Assembly: GCA_000697055.1 (NCBI GenBank)
Contig: JNDT01000533.1
Location: 1 to 18,057, forward strand
Source: Saksenaea vasiformis B4078
Taxonomy: Eukaryota; Mucoromycota; Mucoromycetes; Mucorales; Saksenaeaceae
DNA: 18,057 bases
Direction: 5' to 3'
The notes under the pieces are model-generated. The model saw nothing but the letters and a program-made list of their open reading frames with translations. It ran no database searches and was not told the DNA's origin. The position numbers were made by a program, and so were the translations under genes. Below are positions 2,822 to 18,057 of the stretch, piece by piece. Within the stretch, counting starts at the first letter, position 1; every line of letters begins with the position of its first letter.

Positions 2822-3337
2822 CCATTTTTGTATCGTTATATAAACACCTCATCTTTTCGACGAGTAAAGCGTCAGGTAAAAAGAGCATCTTTCTCTTGGT
2901 TTTTCTTAAGTATTCAAAAAGGTCTTTTCCAAAGGTTTTCTTTTATTTTTCAAGCCGCCCTTTTATTTGCTCTCCCTCCGTTGGTTATTTTCAAGGAACC
3001 ACCGTTAACCAGAATCCGTTGATTATTTTTCTTTTTACTTTACTCTTTTTCCTGACAAGTAACGACAATTCCGCTGTCTTCTCTTTTTCTTTTTTTAACG
3101 ACTGCTCTTTCTGCCACAATTCAAAGCTTTGTTTTTCCTTATTTTCATTTTCTTTTCTTTTCACTGGGATTTCTAACTGAAGATCCAACACGAGATCATA
3201 GGTAATCGTAAAAACGATCTAACTAATGATCAGATTTCTTTTATCAGATAGAAACTTTCCAAAACTTGTCTTTATCGACATTTCTCTTTTTATCTTTTCT
3301 GATAAATACCCTCAAGTCTTGGTATCTGACTAAAAAC
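2822..3337 (-). repeat. Right arm of large imperfect inverted repeat (copy R4)
   Basis: On the minus strand this arm reproduces 1003-1547 block by block, from the terminal CAGATACCAAGACTTGAGGG through the purine tract, the AAAAGAAATCTGATCATTAG block, the GATTACCTATGATCTCGT block and the AACCAACGGAGGGAGAGCAAA block to the GGTATAAAC-like inner end. Similarity to the other copies stops at about 3337, directly against the broken coding region at 3338-4262. That junction is probably the insertion boundary. Pyrimidine-rich ORFs read on the plus strand here are products of the low-complexity arm and are not genes. Confidence 0.8.
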
Positions 3338-4262
3338 TAAGGCGGATGTCCAGAAGTTTTGTAGGTATGAAATCGTTTTCTGGATCAAAAGATGATGAAT
3401 AAATATGCAATGTCTGAGCGGCCGTTGATATTCTAAGAAATACGGCTGATTGAAATGATCGCTGCCGTACGATAGTACAAACGCTTCCAAAGAGGGCGCA
3501 TTCATTTTATTTAGAAAGGATCGTTTGAAAGAGATGAGGTGTGATGCGCGAACACGCAGCATCCACTCAACTTCATTCATATGTATACTATCTTTCATGT
3601 CTTCTTGAATCCTCGACGTACGGCTTCCAACATCGAGGCGCGGGTTATGGCTGCCATATCCGCAGAAATGTCTGTAAGTATAATTGCAGTCTCATGAATG
3701 CGGTTCATGAGTGTTCCCCGGTGATCTTCCGGTAAATCTGCGCGTAATATGTTTTTAAAGTGAGTATTGCACACACATAAACGTTCCGGTACGATAAACA
3801 AGTGAGTCCTTTTTTTCGTCAGGGACGTGTAATACTTGCGTTTTGCACCCGGTATAAGGCAAGTTTGATATGATTTTGCCACTCGGTTACAAGGTTATGT
3901 CCAGCACCGATCGTTTTCTGTACTAACTTAGGTGGATATCCTCCAAGTCTCTCCGCCTGGTCTAAAACACCCCGTGGTAGTCTCTTTTTTTCCACTAAGT
4001 TCCTCCTTAAAACCGCCGAACTCGCCCTCGAGTTCTTGTTCGGAAAATTTGGATTTTTTTCGGCCAAGTATTTTGCATGCGCTTGTACCGCAGCTTCAAG
4101 TTTTTCATTAAACGCTAGATGGATGCTGCGTTTGGCAGCTTCGGAATCGATTTTTGCTATTTTGCACACGGGCGCTTGTTCCTCATTCGAACACTTCAAT
4201 GGTACAGGCACAGGATTATTTGACGTTGGTTGACTCTGTTTTCTTCTGCTGTGTCTTGCCAT
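3337..4262 (-). pseudogene. Broken coding relic of an unrecognised protein, truncated by the repeat
   Basis: Three minus-strand reading frames lie end to end. The first (4262 to 3819) starts with ATG and a basic N-terminus (MARHSRRKQSQ), followed by a stretch with AAVQAHAKYLAEK and LGGYPPKLVQKTIGAG. The second (3882 to 3595, another frame) overlaps the first by about 60 bp and contains NILRADLPEDHRGT and DISADMAAITRASMLEAVRR. The third (3598 to about 3337, a third frame) contains SDHFNQPYFLEYQRPLRHC and runs straight into the repeat, where it ends by chance at 3290. Their order and protein-like composition suggest one ancestral gene disrupted by two frameshifts and a 3' truncation. I found no GT-AG introns that join the frames convincingly. 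The family is not recognised. A mobile-element-borne gene is possible but unproven. Confidence 0.45.
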
Positions 4263-5383: not shown

Positions 5384-6286
5384 TCAACGTCGTCTAGCGA
5401 TCAAGACCGAGTTTACGATATCATTATGCGGGTGAACTTCTGCCAGAGTTTCGAACCCGCATGTATTCACGTTGAAAGGTTCAACGGAAGGATATAGTAA
5501 TTTGCGGAGGGAATGCGCGCTTCGTAGCATGATGACCGCGCCGGGCTTCATCTTCTGTCCAATGCGCCTCAACAATTCCATTTTTTGAGTTTCATCACCC
5601 ACAAGAGCCCCCATGATAACGACATCCGCTTGATCGTAGGCGGTAAAATTTGCCGCGTCGACTTCGTGGAATTTTAAGCGGTCTGCCATGCCCAGAGCTT
5701 CTACTAGTTCGGAGGAAATAGCGATCGCTTGGCGGTTGTTGTCGATATTATCAATGTGGCAGATTTTGTCACACTGCTGCGCCATAAGAATAGAGGAGAG
5801 CGGTAAAGGGCCACTACCAAGAAATGCCACGCGTGTAAGTGTTGCTCCCACACCTTCTAATGCATGGAGTTCCAAACGTGAAAGACCGACGTAATTTTCA
5901 TAGTAGACAAAGTGGGAGAGGGGATGTGAAACATCATCTTTACAAAACGAGATCAATTTTCTGGCCCAGTGCCATTCGAGAAGATATTCGCCTAGTGAAC
6001 ATAGAGCACGTAGAGGATTGGTCAGTGCTTGAATGCTGGGATGGTGAAGAACACGGTCTGTTACATCTTGACTGCATTGGAGTATGGCTATTTGTACCAG
6101 TCTTGTGAATAGGGTATTGATATGGCTACCAGGTTCCAAAGAGGTAGATGTAGCCAGTGCAAGGTATATTTGTTCGATTTCGTTAACAAGTCGTTGAGCT
6201 CGCGTAATAGAAGTATCTTCTTTCACGAGCGGACAATGGTTACAGTGACGGTGACCAGCGTCGTCTTGGATCAAATGGTGAAGCAT
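5384..6286 (-). CDS. Nicotianamine synthase-like protein
   Basis: A 300-residue single-exon protein of the nicotianamine synthase family, whose plant members condense S-adenosylmethionine aminocarboxypropyl groups into the metal chelator nicotianamine. The sequence shows the family landmarks: the FVYYENYVGLSRLE block (about 126-139), the SAM-binding strand-loop VAFLGSGPLPLSSI (153-166), an acidic HIDNID turn with NNRQAIAISS (178-192), DVVIMGALVGDE (221-232), and the C-terminal MLRSAHSLRKLLYPSV block (253-268). The length fits fungal and plant members (about 300). The start at 6286 is the first Met, and a TATA box lies 75 bp upstream. The likely role is chelation and trafficking of Fe, Zn, Ni or Cu in the cytosol. 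It has no introns, whereas the conserved host genes beside it have 6-13, so horizontal acquisition is possible. The exact product (nicotianamine or a related opine-type precursor) cannot be told from sequence. Confidence 0.9.
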   Translation of the reverse strand: MLHHLIQDDAGHRHCNHCPLVKEDTSITRAQRLVNEIEQIYLALATSTSLEPGSHINTLFTRLVQIAILQCSQDVTDRVLHHPSIQALTNPLRALCSLGEYLLEWHWARKLISFCKDDVSHPLSHFVYYENYVGLSRLELHALEGVGATLTRVAFLGSGPLPLSSILMAQQCDKICHIDNIDNNRQAIAISSELVEALGMADRLKFHEVDAANFTAYDQADVVIMGALVGDETQKMELLRRIGQKMKPGAVIMLRSAHSLRKLLYPSVEPFNVNTCGFETLAEVHPHNDIVNSVLIARRR

Positions 6287-14486: not shown

Positions 14487-14874
14487 CAGTACAGTGGTCG
14501 ATATCGGAGGCTGGTATGAACGTGCAATGCGTCCTGTCCAAAATGGTGATAGAAGAAAGGTTCGGTTCTGAATACTGAGCAGACAACTGAATTCCCAGTC
14601 CAATTCGACCAGGCAAAACGCTATTTCAGCCAATAAAAAGCGGCCTGAAGACCCGACGTTATGCCCAGCCCGCTCTCGCCCGTCTGTGGTGTTCTGCGCC
14701 AATGGGAATGCAGAGTTAATGTTCGGAAACGAAAGTAAACGAATGAAAATCTCAAGTTAATCTGCGGAAGTTAGTATCAGCAAATAAAATGGCTCAGTTA
14801 ATCTTCGGACGTTTTATGGCAACGAAATTCGCCATCAGCCATGAACACTTGGCAAGAGCAAATACAACGACCAC
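14487..14874. other. Upstream region of TMF1-like gene
   Basis: No coding signal is convincing. The plus strand contains CAGCCAATAAAAAG near 14623 and CCAATGGGAATG near 14699, that is, two CCAAT pentamers about 140 and 215 bp upstream of the TMF1-like ATG, in inverted orientation relative to that gene. These are plausible CCAAT-box promoter elements but unproven. A minus-strand frame open upstream of the TMF1-like ATG lacks conservation signals and was not used to extend the gene. Confidence 0.35.
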
Positions 14875-15556
14875 ATGCATCATGAAGAGCTATTAGCTTC
14901 CGTTAATGCCAACGCTTCAGAGGAGATTTTTAAAAAAGACGAGCTAGTAGAGAATCCTTTTGAGTCCTATTTTCAACGGTTGCAGCAAAAAATGAGTGGC
15001 GAAATGAGGAGATCTGCCATAACCGTGGTGTAACCGTAACTAGTGATGGTGTACAAGAATCTGACAGGCAGAGAAGTTCTCATCACTGTTAAATATTTTC
15101 AAGACAGTAAAATGGAGGTAGGCTGATATATGTGTTGCACAAATCAACTGCGTTTTTCAAAAACGCGTAATCAGTATCCTCTTGATTCAACGTTGTCATA
15201 TTACCCATGCCTAACCTGCCTTCTGGAACCTGAGCCTATCTATTCGAAATATTCAAAAAGAAAAAAGGCCTTATGGCCTGGATGACTGGTCCCTGGCCAG
15301 TGGAACCAATGACAAAGAGAATGACCGACTTTTGCCATTTTCCATTGATACCAATATGAAAGTTGTAGAAAGATATTTCTCGACCGCCGTCGCAGAATTT
15401 TGGACAGGTTGCCCTTGCGCTTCTCCCAACAGTTACCTATATGTATATTTGAATGTAGCTGTCTGTCAATACGGCGTCATTTACAAAAAAAATGCCTGTT
15501 CGCACTGGCCATACCTTGCTGAAAGGCTCAACAGACACGGAGACACAAAGTGTTAG
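14875..15556 (+). pseudogene. Unrecognised coding segment, possibly spliced and frameshifted
   Basis: A frame begins at ATG 14875 (MHHEELLASVNANASEEIFK, then NPFESYFQRLQQKMSGEMRR) and can be spliced in frame as 14875-15029, 15072-15117 (EVLITVKYFQDSKME) and 15175 onward (YPLDSTLSYYPCLTCLLEPE). This last exon stops at TGA 15280-15282, shortly after an A-rich run near 15250-15266. In another frame across that run the sequence stays open and protein-like: QKEKRPYGLDDWSLASGT, NDRLLPFSIDTNMKVVERYF, STAVAEFW, ending at TAG 15554-15556. A frameshift in the A-run would explain this. The two proposed introns (42 and 57 bp) match local intron size. No family is recognised. It lies just upstream of and in the same orientation as the Fanzor-like gene, so it could be an element-associated gene or an unrelated relic. 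Confidence 0.35.
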
Positions 15557-15662
15557 TCTAAGCAGCGTCCCATCACGCAAAACAAAGAACAGTCCTACGA
15601 ATTCACATATATTCCATCTAACTATTTGACAACAAATCTCCCTTCCTTTTTATCCCCAAAAG

Positions 15663-18057
15663 ATGGACAGACAACGCAGCGAAGTTGAAGAGCCCCCGCC
15701 CCGCAGGAGACGGTACGGGTATCAGGAAACACCCCTCTCGCAATTGCCTGGTCGCGACCAATCGTTTGTTCGAAAATTGAAGCTTTGTAATTTTCTGCAG
15801 GAGGACTACAAACAACTAAGGGTATTATTGTACCATGGAATTCTCATATAAACTATTTCAAATATTTTAAACACAAGATGATATAGGGAGTTCTCCGTTC
15901 AGTGGCAGAAGAATACGCCACTGCCTGCCAGTGTGCGATGCTTCTGGTCAATTTACATGTCCATCGTTGGATCAATGGCGACTTCGAGGTTTTCCCTCCT
16001 CTCCATGATGAATTCTTCTTCATCTCCGCGTTCAAGATGATTCTGACTCGAGACCCCAGCACAAACATTCGCGTTGCGTTTGTATGTAGCGGCGTTAGGA
16101 AGCTATCAAGATAAACTAAATCTGCTTTCATGATCAATAGTCTAACTACCGCTGGTGTTATGACTTACGGCAGACTTTCGAGAACTTTTTCGATAGTTGC
16201 AGAATGAACCCAGCGACTGGAGAAGGTATACATATAAACTAGTAGAGCTAACTAAACTTACAACTTCTGCAGCAAACTACCGATTTCCCACATTGACATA
16301 CATGTTGAGAGCGCTGGCCCCGTCATTTGCGGGGAAAATAGTCAGCAGTGAGTGAAACCATCCGAAAGAAAAATGAACACAAGTTTTTGCGTGTTTGTAG
16401 ACACCTACATGCATATCACATCGAACCTTCATATATATATGAAGCGAACGTTCCTTGCTTTTTTTGATGAACTATTTGCGAACCATCCGCAAAATCAGCA
16501 ACACGATGCGAAAAGCTTAGGTATTACTCGACTACATAATGTATTTACCTCAGATTGCTTACGGTGTATTGTCTTGCTTCCAATTTGTAGCATCCAGATG
16601 TGTTCGGGGAATAACGGTGCAAGAACTTTTTGACCGTAGTGCATGGACAACTTTGGACGACGACTCAATCACCGACCTCGAAGTCTTTTATGAGTATGAC
16701 AAGACAAGATATCAACTTATTTTCTTCCCCAAGATTACTTACCGTTGGGAACTTCCTAGAGAGTTTCAGAATGTTTATCAGGAAAACCTTGGCAATGTCG
16801 ATATAACCGCAGACCTCAGTGATGATGAAAACCAGCGGTTGCTTCCCTGTATGCTTCGTCTCTCAGCATTGATGCTTAAGCAAACAAATGAGCTCAATGG
16901 AAAAGGCTGGACTCTCGTCCCAATGTCTAAAAACCAGATAGGCAAGCTGAAACCTGGTGACCTTGTTTGAACCATAATATGAGCTAAGCAATAATACTAC
17001 ACTAGGTTACTTCCCCGTAACCGGTAAAACACTTTACTGGGCGCTTAAAGACGTTACCACCGAACTCCCGGAAAATCTAGCAGTAGGTGTCTCGTAAAAA
17101 AAAAGCATAAATTGACCGAAGGAAAATTGACTCTTACGTTAGGGTCCTTTGCAAGGCTTTCATAGCTTCAATAATGCGCTCAAGGACATGATATACCGCG
17201 AACAACTTTGGGAAGCGATTTTCTGTCTTGATAGAGTCATGCCTCGCCGCCGCCGGGCACAAGGTTTGGTCATATACTTAAACTTGTTCATATAAGGGAT
17301 AAATAACGATGAGCTACCAGAAGTAGAGTTTGATTATGGCTTTGAGACGGATGGTGTTATGGTGGCAGTCAGATTTAAATCTCGCAAACCAAACCAAGGT
17401 CAGCCCAGTTTTTGTTATGCCGTGGAGCACGCTAACAGAAAGGTTGCATTTCAGCATCTTATCCGTCCTCCCAAAGAGAGTTTCAGTTCCTTCCTCGTAA
17501 CAGGGATTTCTCTGATTTGCATAATGGCATCTATCATTTAAAGAAGGAACCTAGGGGTTTAACAGCCGCGCGCGACTTAGATCCTGAGATAACTCGAATA
17601 GTGGGAATCGATCCTGGTATTTTTTTTTTCTATAAGGAACTCAACAGAAGCTATATATATATCTTAGGGATCCGTTCTCTTGTAACTGCTGTGGATACTG
17701 CAGATGACCTTCATGATCAAGAGGCGAGAGAAAACCACACATTTGGCGTTACAAATAATTATTATCAGTAAGATATCAATAACCTGTACATATCCAGCAC
17801 AATAACTGCGTATTTTTTTAGATCCAGCTCCAAGTTTAACTGGAGTCTTCAGCTAGAAAAGAAGAATCGTGAAATTGCCAACATGCAGGAAGTCTACGAT
17901 CGTCTTTCGGAACATCCTAAGACGGCCTCATCTGTTCCGGAATTCCAGCGCTTTCTCACGGCACAATTTAGCGAAAAACAGAGGTAGCTACAGAATGTTC
18001 TTGTCAATATGTGGTCATATTGAATGGATTATTTCCAGGACGGATGAGTTCAACCGT
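15663..18057 (+). CDS. Fanzor-like protein (eukaryotic TnpB homologue), 3' end beyond the window
   Basis: Thirteen exons join without a stop: 15663-15821, 15887-16081, 16141-16225, 16273-16347, 16401-16520, 16591-16956, 17006-17082, 17143-17263, 17327-17398, 17455-17616, 17668-17767, 17822-17983, 18039-18057 (571 codons so far). Fanzors are eukaryotic relatives of the IS200/IS605 TnpB nucleases; characterised members are RNA-guided DNA endonucleases. Here the RuvC-I motif is explicit: RIVGIDPGIRSLVTAVDT, with candidate catalytic Asp at about residue 476, rebuilt across the intron 17617-17667. Before it come FDYGFETDGV (about 401-410) and NRDFSDLHNGIYHLKK, which resemble the region preceding RuvC-I in fungal Fanzors. 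The N-terminus is basic (PPPRRRRYGYQ). After RuvC-I comes SKFNWSLQLEKKNREIANM, as expected for the post-RuvC-I insert. RuvC-II, the zinc finger and RuvC-III would lie downstream, outside the window. All 12 introns (47-70 bp) keep the frame, so the visible part looks intact. Confidence 0.85.

Follow-up and report, generated by a model that had tools for sequence, protein, structure and literature searches.

An 18,057-bp stretch of the genome of the fungus Saksenaea vasiformis B4078 (contig JNDT01000533.1; hereafter the window) carries what is probably the first 13 of the 18 exons of a Fanzor1 gene, borne on a multi-copy transposon with 8-bp target duplications. The encoded protein is predicted to be an RNA-guided nuclease that takes its guide from the right end of the element, and we hold this overall reading with fair confidence. 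It draws on the gene structure, low ratios of nonsynonymous to synonymous substitution rates (dN/dS, omega), Fanzor1 motifs in relatives, the element ends, the target duplications, a one-sided CCG and a conserved right-end block. The window is an entire contig (C8; 18,057 of 18,057 bases), and the remainder of the gene was read from relatives in the same genome, of which 38.7 Mb in 666 contigs was scanned.

The exons at 15663-18057 are joined by 12 introns, all GT-AG and 47-70 bp long, into 573 codons without a stop:
15663..15821, + strand, Fanzor1 exon 1, with the ATG at 15663
15887..16081, + strand, Fanzor1 exon 2
16141..16225, + strand, Fanzor1 exon 3
16273..16347, + strand, Fanzor1 exon 4
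16401..16520, + strand, Fanzor1 exon 5
16591..16956, + strand, Fanzor1 exon 6
17006..17082, + strand, Fanzor1 exon 7
17143..17263, + strand, Fanzor1 exon 8
17321..17398, + strand, Fanzor1 exon 9, with the WED-domain TDG motif at 17347-17355
17455..17616, + strand, Fanzor1 exon 10, with the RuvC-I Asp codon (GIDPG) at 17610-17612
17668..17767, + strand, Fanzor1 exon 11, encoding IRSLVTAVD
17822..17983, + strand, Fanzor1 exon 12
18039..18057, + strand, Fanzor1 exon 13, truncated by the contig end

A preliminary description of this DNA had already given the 13 exons, the 12 introns and the uninterrupted frame, which we find again; its count of 571 codons becomes 573. It had also held that a scan for open reading frames (ORFs) would miss the gene, and a six-frame search with PF07282, the TnpB/Fanzor zinc domain, indeed lists no match on the contig (with scores for 150 of the 388 candidates); the contig stops short of the zinc-finger part anyway. 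A suspected frameshift near 17495 was ruled out, as the intron at 17399-17454 accounts for the apparent break. Between 17420 and 17560 the copies align at equal length, save for a 2-base gap inside this intron in three distant copies.

Counting the window, 42 places in the genome match the DNA of the gene. Seventeen relatives that span the gene (L010-L023 and L025-L027) were used for comparison; the remaining 24 hold partial matches or were not retrieved. The complete gene in the relatives has 18 exons and encodes 816 amino acids, and the window shows about 70% of it. All 18 exon lengths are identical in 8 of the 17 relatives, and one to six exons differ in the other nine. Because exon lengths are kept across the relatives while intron lengths vary, the exon structure is not a product of chance.

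Sequence motifs place the gene in the Fanzor1 family. The DPG of the RuvC-I motif, named as a feature of the Fanzor1 clade (PMC10711439; papers are cited here for the parts of their text that were available), is found as GIDPG at 17604-17669 (spliced) and is invariant across an alignment of six sequences. This bears out the RuvC-I signature of the TnpB/Fanzor type noted in the preliminary description, with intron 10 splitting it between GIDPG and IRSLVTAVD. The TDG of the WED domain, another named Fanzor1 feature (PMC10711439), is present as FETDG and aligns with the TDG of SpuFz1 and GtFz1. Beyond the window end, the relatives encode DEYKTSKVC, in which D, E, T, S and C are invariant in the six-sequence alignment and which aligns with LDEYKTSSVC of SpuFz1. 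An alternative RuvC-II glutamate, termed Ealt, has been described in the context DE-x-x-TS-x-x-C (PMC10711439), and we read the glutamate of DEYKTSKVC as Ealt. With the zinc site CSIC...CPQC and the RuvC-III NRD (in NRDVNA), also present in relatives, the RuvC-II glutamate (in its alternative form), CxxC zinc site and RuvC-III aspartate that had been named as features to look for downstream are all found. The Fanzor1 motif of Bao and Jurka, D-X(125,275)-[TS][TS]-X-X-C4 zinc finger-X(5,50)-RD (PMC3627910), is complete, with D478, TS at 685-686, CSIC...CPQC and RD 14 residues further; the zinc site of the 816-residue protein carries a long insertion.

Database searches gave a more mixed picture. 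Residues 250-816 matched five among 5.8 billion proteins, all hypothetical or uncharacterised (Fennellomyces, Rhizomucor and Phytophthora), the closest being that of Fennellomyces at 33% identity. A profile built from the query and these five proteins matched, among solved structures, SpuFz1 (E 2.6e-10) and GtFz1 (E 0.001), the only other listed chain having an E of 0.83. An NCBIfam search gave no match. Two results weigh against the assignment, i.e., a single-sequence phmmer search of the protein against PDB chains found no match, and PF07282 scored 22.6 bits on the protein alone, under the cut-off of 26.3. Four of the six alignment members match PF07282 at E<=0.1 (best 6.5e-05), and a PF07282 score above cut-off is not a defining feature of Fanzor1. 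Since that score is below the cut-off and the single-sequence search was empty, the family call is based on the motifs and the profile. The profile comparison proposed earlier reached SpuFz1 and GtFz1, with PF07282 staying under its cut-off on the protein alone, and the Fanzor-like identity proposed with it is supported by the motifs and the profile matches. The gene is likely a Fanzor1, and its product is predicted to cleave DNA as an RNA-guided nuclease.

The substitution pattern points to constraint. Pairwise dN/dS between the window copy and each of the 17 relatives is 0.11-0.18, at dS values of 0.23-0.72. Changes found only in the window copy comprise 4 nonsynonymous and 9 synonymous ones, corresponding to an omega of about 0.08 (binomial P 1.3e-5 against neutrality; small counts). 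Neutral simulation at half the intron divergence produced a mean of 3.7 stops, and 2.4% of the runs remained free of stops. Both the pairwise values and the window-only changes agree with the earlier proposal that this copy is under constraint or was recently active, and the window copy or its near lineage looks constrained, on small counts. Synonymous divergence exceeds intron divergence (between the window and L010, dS is 0.23 and introns differ by 0.11), perhaps through mutation bias or selection within introns.

An unlikely alternative is that the window copy is a relic, i.e., a recently dead Fanzor1 element that is stop-free by chance in the visible 70%. The state of the family gives this some weight and counts against an active gene: the frame is broken in 13 of the 17 relatives, and only L010, L013, L019 and L025 are open to the stop without a frameshift. 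One of these four has GT-AG at all 17 introns, and in the other three one or two donors are not GT. In the window copy the left terminal repeat is degenerate and the left-end ORF only a remnant, and the last five exons lie outside the contig. On the other hand, all 12 splice pairs are intact, omega is low with every relative, and the 4:9 ratio of window-only changes differs from that of most broken copies. The ratio of nonsynonymous to synonymous copy-only changes is at least 0.5 in eight of the 13 (L015-L018, L021-L023 and L026; small counts), and broken L020 has 12 nonsynonymous and no synonymous changes, leaving its ratio undefined; the other four range from 0.13 to 0.37 (L011 0.13, L012 0.22, L027 0.24, L014 0.37). 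The open copy L010 has a ratio of 0.64.

The Fanzor1 gene rides on a multi-copy transposon family, which, like the one-sided target motif described below, the preliminary description had not seen. The parts of the element present in the window are:
14672..18057, + strand, Fanzor1-carrying transposon copy; homology to relatives starts about here and runs off the contig, and the right end is missing
14714..14727, + strand, left-end repeat AGTTAATGTTCGGA, occurring three times at 41-bp spacing in L019 and L010
14854..15027, + strand, remnant of a 78-residue left-end ORF (67% identity, E 3e-21), homologous to the start of DUF6729 genes in L083/L084

Because this copy has a degenerate left terminal repeat, its first base is placed only approximately. 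The full element is about 4.5 kb long with imperfect inverted ends, and the copies share sharp ends, on the left GGCTCGCC... and on the right ...CACGGAGCC or ...CACATAGCC. Terminal repeats, which had been suggested as something to look for, are thus present at the element ends. The imperfect repeat GGCTC-N8-TGTCTGT occurs 47 times in the genome, against 3 for the reversed pattern. Among the 11 copies in which a script located both ends, the 8-bp target duplication is perfect in six and matches at 7 of 8 positions in one more; of 110 mismatched pairs of ends, none was perfect and two matched at 7 of 8. By eye, a duplication was also seen in L011 (outside the script's 11) and in L012, and none in L010, L020 or L023. 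The duplicated sequence varies between copies and so cannot be a target-adjacent motif (TAM) or a fixed part of an RNA scaffold. We found no transposase gene in the element, and in the window the interval from the left end to the Fanzor start fully encloses no ORF of at least 80 amino acids. At C133:35388-35431 (L077), only about 6 bp, shorter than a single duplication, separate the right end of one element from the left end of another, which may be a tandem or circle-type junction.

The ends and the left-end ORF connect this family with elements that encode DUF6729 proteins. The 78-residue ORF has 44 matches in the genome, often broken, and is 40-41% identical to the start of the DUF6729 loci L083/L084. 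Two of the matches, in C300 and C383 (41-43% identity), fall outside the Fanzor family. There it continues into a long multi-exon DUF6729 gene, in which the Pfam domain scores above cut-off in one piece from L084 and below it in the other pieces, including L083. L084 has the same left-end repeat and 63% identity in its DNA over 187 bp, and the right terminal repeat recurs in L083 (14 of 15 bases), L091 (15 of 15) and C330 (14 of 15). L083, L084 and L091 yielded no Fanzor; C330, a DUF6729-type locus, was covered by 0.95 kb from its ends. As a side observation, the DUF6729 genes look as if they encode a transposition protein, with a zinc-ribbon-like start, an exonuclease-like stretch in L084 (a weak 3'-5' exonuclease match) and the right terminal repeat in L083 and L091; DDE-like residues were noted by eye only. 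A homologue search with the DUF6729 protein gave none at E<=0.001, and our literature search found no paper naming DUF6729.

A second Fanzor family in the same genome (C422, C475, C532, C437, C416 and C578; left end GGCTGGCAGTA) has Fanzor stretches 37-82% identical to the first where they match, and a DUF6729 piece is retained in four of the six copies, among the matches listed. Five right-end regions were fetched and four reach an end; the 8-bp duplications are perfect in C422 and C475, absent in C416, and in C532 the repeat is lost. We had taken these elements (L085-L090, L109-L121) for Fanzor-free DUF6729 elements, which was refuted when tblastn found Fanzor in six copies. C657 (L085, L109) and C398 (L098, L115) have second-family left ends, with CCG at -19 and -21; no Fanzor was found in the single 0.9-kb downstream piece of each, and a further search with 55 of 703 candidates scored does not settle its presence. 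In our reading, the body of a DUF6729-type transposase element would have been replaced by Fanzor in steps, with movement now provided in trans.

It is very improbable that the element is instead one of the MuDR-associated Fanzor1 elements of Mucorales (ROr-4, PBl-3, MCi-4). These come from the same fungal order, and the genome holds 48 MULE matches, two of them beside other Fanzor-type loci. However, the known MuDR-associated elements have 9-bp duplications and MuDR-like ends (PMC3627910), whereas here the duplication is 8 bp (6 of 11 perfect) and the ends match those of DUF6729 elements. The two other loci, C599:2383-3099 and C531:67875-68591, lie within a few hundred bases of MULE matches, an arrangement that resembles the MuDR-Fanzor elements reported from Mucorales.

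The insertion sites of the transposon share a motif on one side only, represented in the window by:
14653..14655, + strand, CCG target motif, outside the element and 19 bp before its left end, with the motif near the same place in other copies

In 14 of 30 distinct left flanks, that of the window being one of the 30, a CCG begins precisely 21 bp ahead of GCTC, where 0.7 were expected (P 1.7e-15, without correction for having chosen the offset). It is embedded in a wider consensus TT.AA.CTCCGC and lies outside the duplication, about 12 bp upstream of the insertion. The right flank conserves only the first base of the duplication, a C (31 of 35). In the second family, where 11 of 23 fetched left ends are intact (at most 2 mismatches), CCG is at -19 in seven, between -20 and -23 in three and absent from one (P 1.2e-9). 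At C383:18184 (L055/L084), a DUF6729 element has its left-end repeat interrupted by a left-end fragment of a Fanzor element. The insertion lies at TCCGAAG, which is the usual target motif within the end of a related element.

Could the CCG be the TAM of the Fanzor, with a staggered break about 12 and 20 nt downstream receiving the element, so that Fanzor picks the landing sites? The exactness of the offset in both families (14 of 30 and 7 of 11 sites) fits, as does a one-sided motif at cutting distance, as in Cas12-like enzymes; moreover, the TAM of NlovFz2 is CCG, and SpuFz1 cuts at 16/17 and 20/21 (PMC10432273). We nevertheless consider this improbable. The sequences adjoining CCG have nothing in common with each other or with the flanks that would serve as guides, the right-end guide would begin 12 nt too far from CCG, and TT.AA.CTCCGC is longer than the four TAMs given in the available text of PMC10432273. 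As a TAM for a right-end guide, CCG was rejected for its wrong geometry, the lack of an adjacent motif and the lack of guide-target similarity.

Three results weigh against a guide taken from the right end or against the attribution of CCG to the DUF6729 elements. No TAM-like motif adjoins the duplication where such a guide would begin (at most 0.17 bits at -17..-10), and the right flanks show no likeness to other insertion sites, their longest matches averaging 4.30 as compared with 4.23 after shuffling. Furthermore, the left ends of L083, L091 and C330 were not found, and no target sites could be determined for Fanzor-free DUF6729 elements. Since Fanzor was found in the second family, the target motif was dropped as proof of a transposase origin, and the evidence cannot assign CCG since, to the extent tested, Fanzor is present in those elements whose targets can be measured. 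We favour the transposition machinery as its reader, since there is no shared protospacer and no guide-target similarity.

The preliminary description had expected a guide RNA near the 3' end, outside the window, and a conserved candidate block is indeed found at the right end of the relatives. Over the 3.67 kb common to 15 copies, the most conserved of 3607 segments of 66 nt is L019:4936-5001, with 5 variable columns compared with a median of 24 and with 10 in the next non-overlapping segment. This block covers the last codons, the stop codon and the 3' untranslated region (3'-UTR); its synonymous sites and the 3'-UTR barely vary. It can form three hairpins spanning the stop codon, which the second family keeps with an A-U to G-C change in hairpin 1, a G-U to A-U change in hairpin 2 and changed loops (13 of the 15 first-family copies and 3 of the second family compared). 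In the drawn structure, which was derived from the same sequences, 99.5% of cells are paired; sliding it lowers this to 22-42%. After the block, a stretch GTAAG...CTAAC or TTAAC...AG ends exactly at the terminal repeat. This intron-like stretch, unrelated in sequence between the families, is 51 nt long in the first family and 61 nt in C422, and GTAAG is lost in C416. With one sequence per family, the between-family alignment gave z values of 8.6 for the block and 6.0 for the terminal repeat, and of 1.6 for the intron-like stretch (-0.2 without the splice sites). The terminal repeat itself folds as GGCU...AGCC with an inner stem GAC/GUC or CAGAC/GUCUG.

The block is our best candidate for a guide RNA, and it may be made by splicing. 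Several findings weigh against this. Folding energies are no better than those of shuffled sequences (z -0.02; -0.25 and -0.2; spliced -0.06 and -1.1; unspliced 0.6 and -0.58), and the best-energy fold of the spliced first-family RNA loses hairpins 1 and 3, both of which form for L010 in another fold. Covariation amounts to one compensatory pair, in hairpin 1, probably a single event, and its score was reached by 46 of 500 shuffles. L019 and L015 are without 4 nt inside the block, which a count on L019 positions does not see. A second possible donor, GCA|GTAAGG, overlaps the stop codon (L019:4970-4980; GTGAGG in the second family); splicing from it would extend the reading frame through the terminal repeat and past its end. 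An Rfam search returned only one sub-threshold match. For the conserved structured RNA that had been suggested as something to look for in the 3' flank, the candidate is a conserved block that can form hairpins and whose folding energies do not set it apart from shuffled sequence.

It is conceivable, though we doubt it, that the block reflects only constraints of coding, splicing and the transposon end, and no guide RNA. The block overlaps the last codons, the stop and a possible donor and adjoins the terminal repeat, and the near-zero folding z and single compensatory pair fit such an explanation. However, it is conserved beyond every other 66-nt segment, those of the catalytic exons included, its synonymous sites and 3'-UTR are nearly invariant, and the hairpins persist while the loops change between families. 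A guide-RNA role for the block has a more specific form that we advance tentatively, well short of an even chance: the guide would be a spliced RNA, in which removal of a 3'-UTR intron joins the three-hairpin scaffold around the stop codon to the terminal-repeat hairpin, followed by host flank as the guide. A scaffold ending at the repeat fits the prediction for insect-virus Fanzor1, of which the terminal repeat and the duplication are predicted scaffold parts (PMC10711439). The word 'intron' is absent from the available text of PMC10711439 and of PMC11423790, and the passages with 'splic' available from the latter do not concern guide RNA.

Taken as a mechanism, the overall reading would run as follows. 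The RuvC/zinc-finger protein would be catalytically active. The right-end block and the terminal-repeat hairpin would form its RNA scaffold, the 3'-UTR intron between them being removed, and the downstream flank would act as guide. The element would lack its own transposase and rely in trans on the DUF6729-protein elements, which have matching ends, and the transposition machinery, not Fanzor, would read the CCG at its near-fixed distance. The nuclease probably aids persistence of the element by cutting sites that lack it. Persistence through cutting of element-free sites has been proposed for TnpB.

The predicted system resembles the Fanzor1 proteins SpuFz1, GtFz1 and PpFz1 in its RuvC-I, -II and -III motifs, zinc site, TDG and alternative glutamate, in being carried by a DNA transposon, and in a candidate 3'-end RNA that reaches the right terminal repeat. 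It differs in its 816 amino acids spread over 18 exons, its score below the Pfam cut-off, its only five protein matches, the variable 8-bp duplication and the possible intron between scaffold block and terminal repeat. The Fanzor1 elements of Bao and Jurka (2013) are associated with MuDR, IS4-like, Sola2, Helitron and Mariner transposons, and 8-bp duplications were reported for an IS4-type element (PMC3627910). Like the present element, they are transposase-less or chimeric, keep a donor-transposon end and carry Fanzor1; here, in contrast, the ends, the left-end ORF and the domain retained in the second family tie the element to DUF6729 elements, which the available text of PMC3627910 does not mention, and a one-sided CCG is found. 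The insect-virus Fanzor1 (SfAV) is likewise non-autonomous, with Fanzor1 only, and its terminal repeat is predicted to lie in the scaffold (PMC10711439). It has a 4-bp TTAN duplication (PMC3627910), whereas that of the present element is 8 bp and variable, and no RNA intron is mentioned for it in the available text of PMC10711439. The DUF6729 elements of this genome share the left-end ORF (L083, L084), the left-end repeat (L084) and the right terminal repeat (L083, L091, C330) with the Fanzor element and differ by holding pieces of the long multi-exon DUF6729 protein, no Fanzor having been detected in L083, L084 or L091.

Elsewhere in the window, a single-exon nicotianamine synthase gene lies at 5384-6286 on the - strand (PF03059, E 5e-64). 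It is 79% identical to its counterpart in Apophysomyces sp. BC1034, labelled a proteasome subunit by its source, and 73% to that of A. ossiformis. Three adjacent ORFs of 102, 95 and 147 amino acids at 3290-4262 (-) are perhaps one spliced gene; the 147-residue ORF has no Pfam match.

The S. vasiformis genome is Fanzor-rich, with PF07282 at no fewer than 137 places in the six-frame search. The gene described here would add a divergent, intron-rich Fanzor1 clade under selection, of a sort that ORF scans miss. If the guide is indeed spliced, one transcript would give both the protein message and the guide, and the spliceosome would decide when a working guide exists. The two related families within one genome offer natural comparisons for locating the guide RNA, and they also bear on how targets are found with a variable duplication and on what moves transposase-less Fanzor elements. 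Finally, the results suggest that the Pfam family DUF6729, of unknown function, belongs to a transposition protein whose elements land at a near-fixed distance from CCG.

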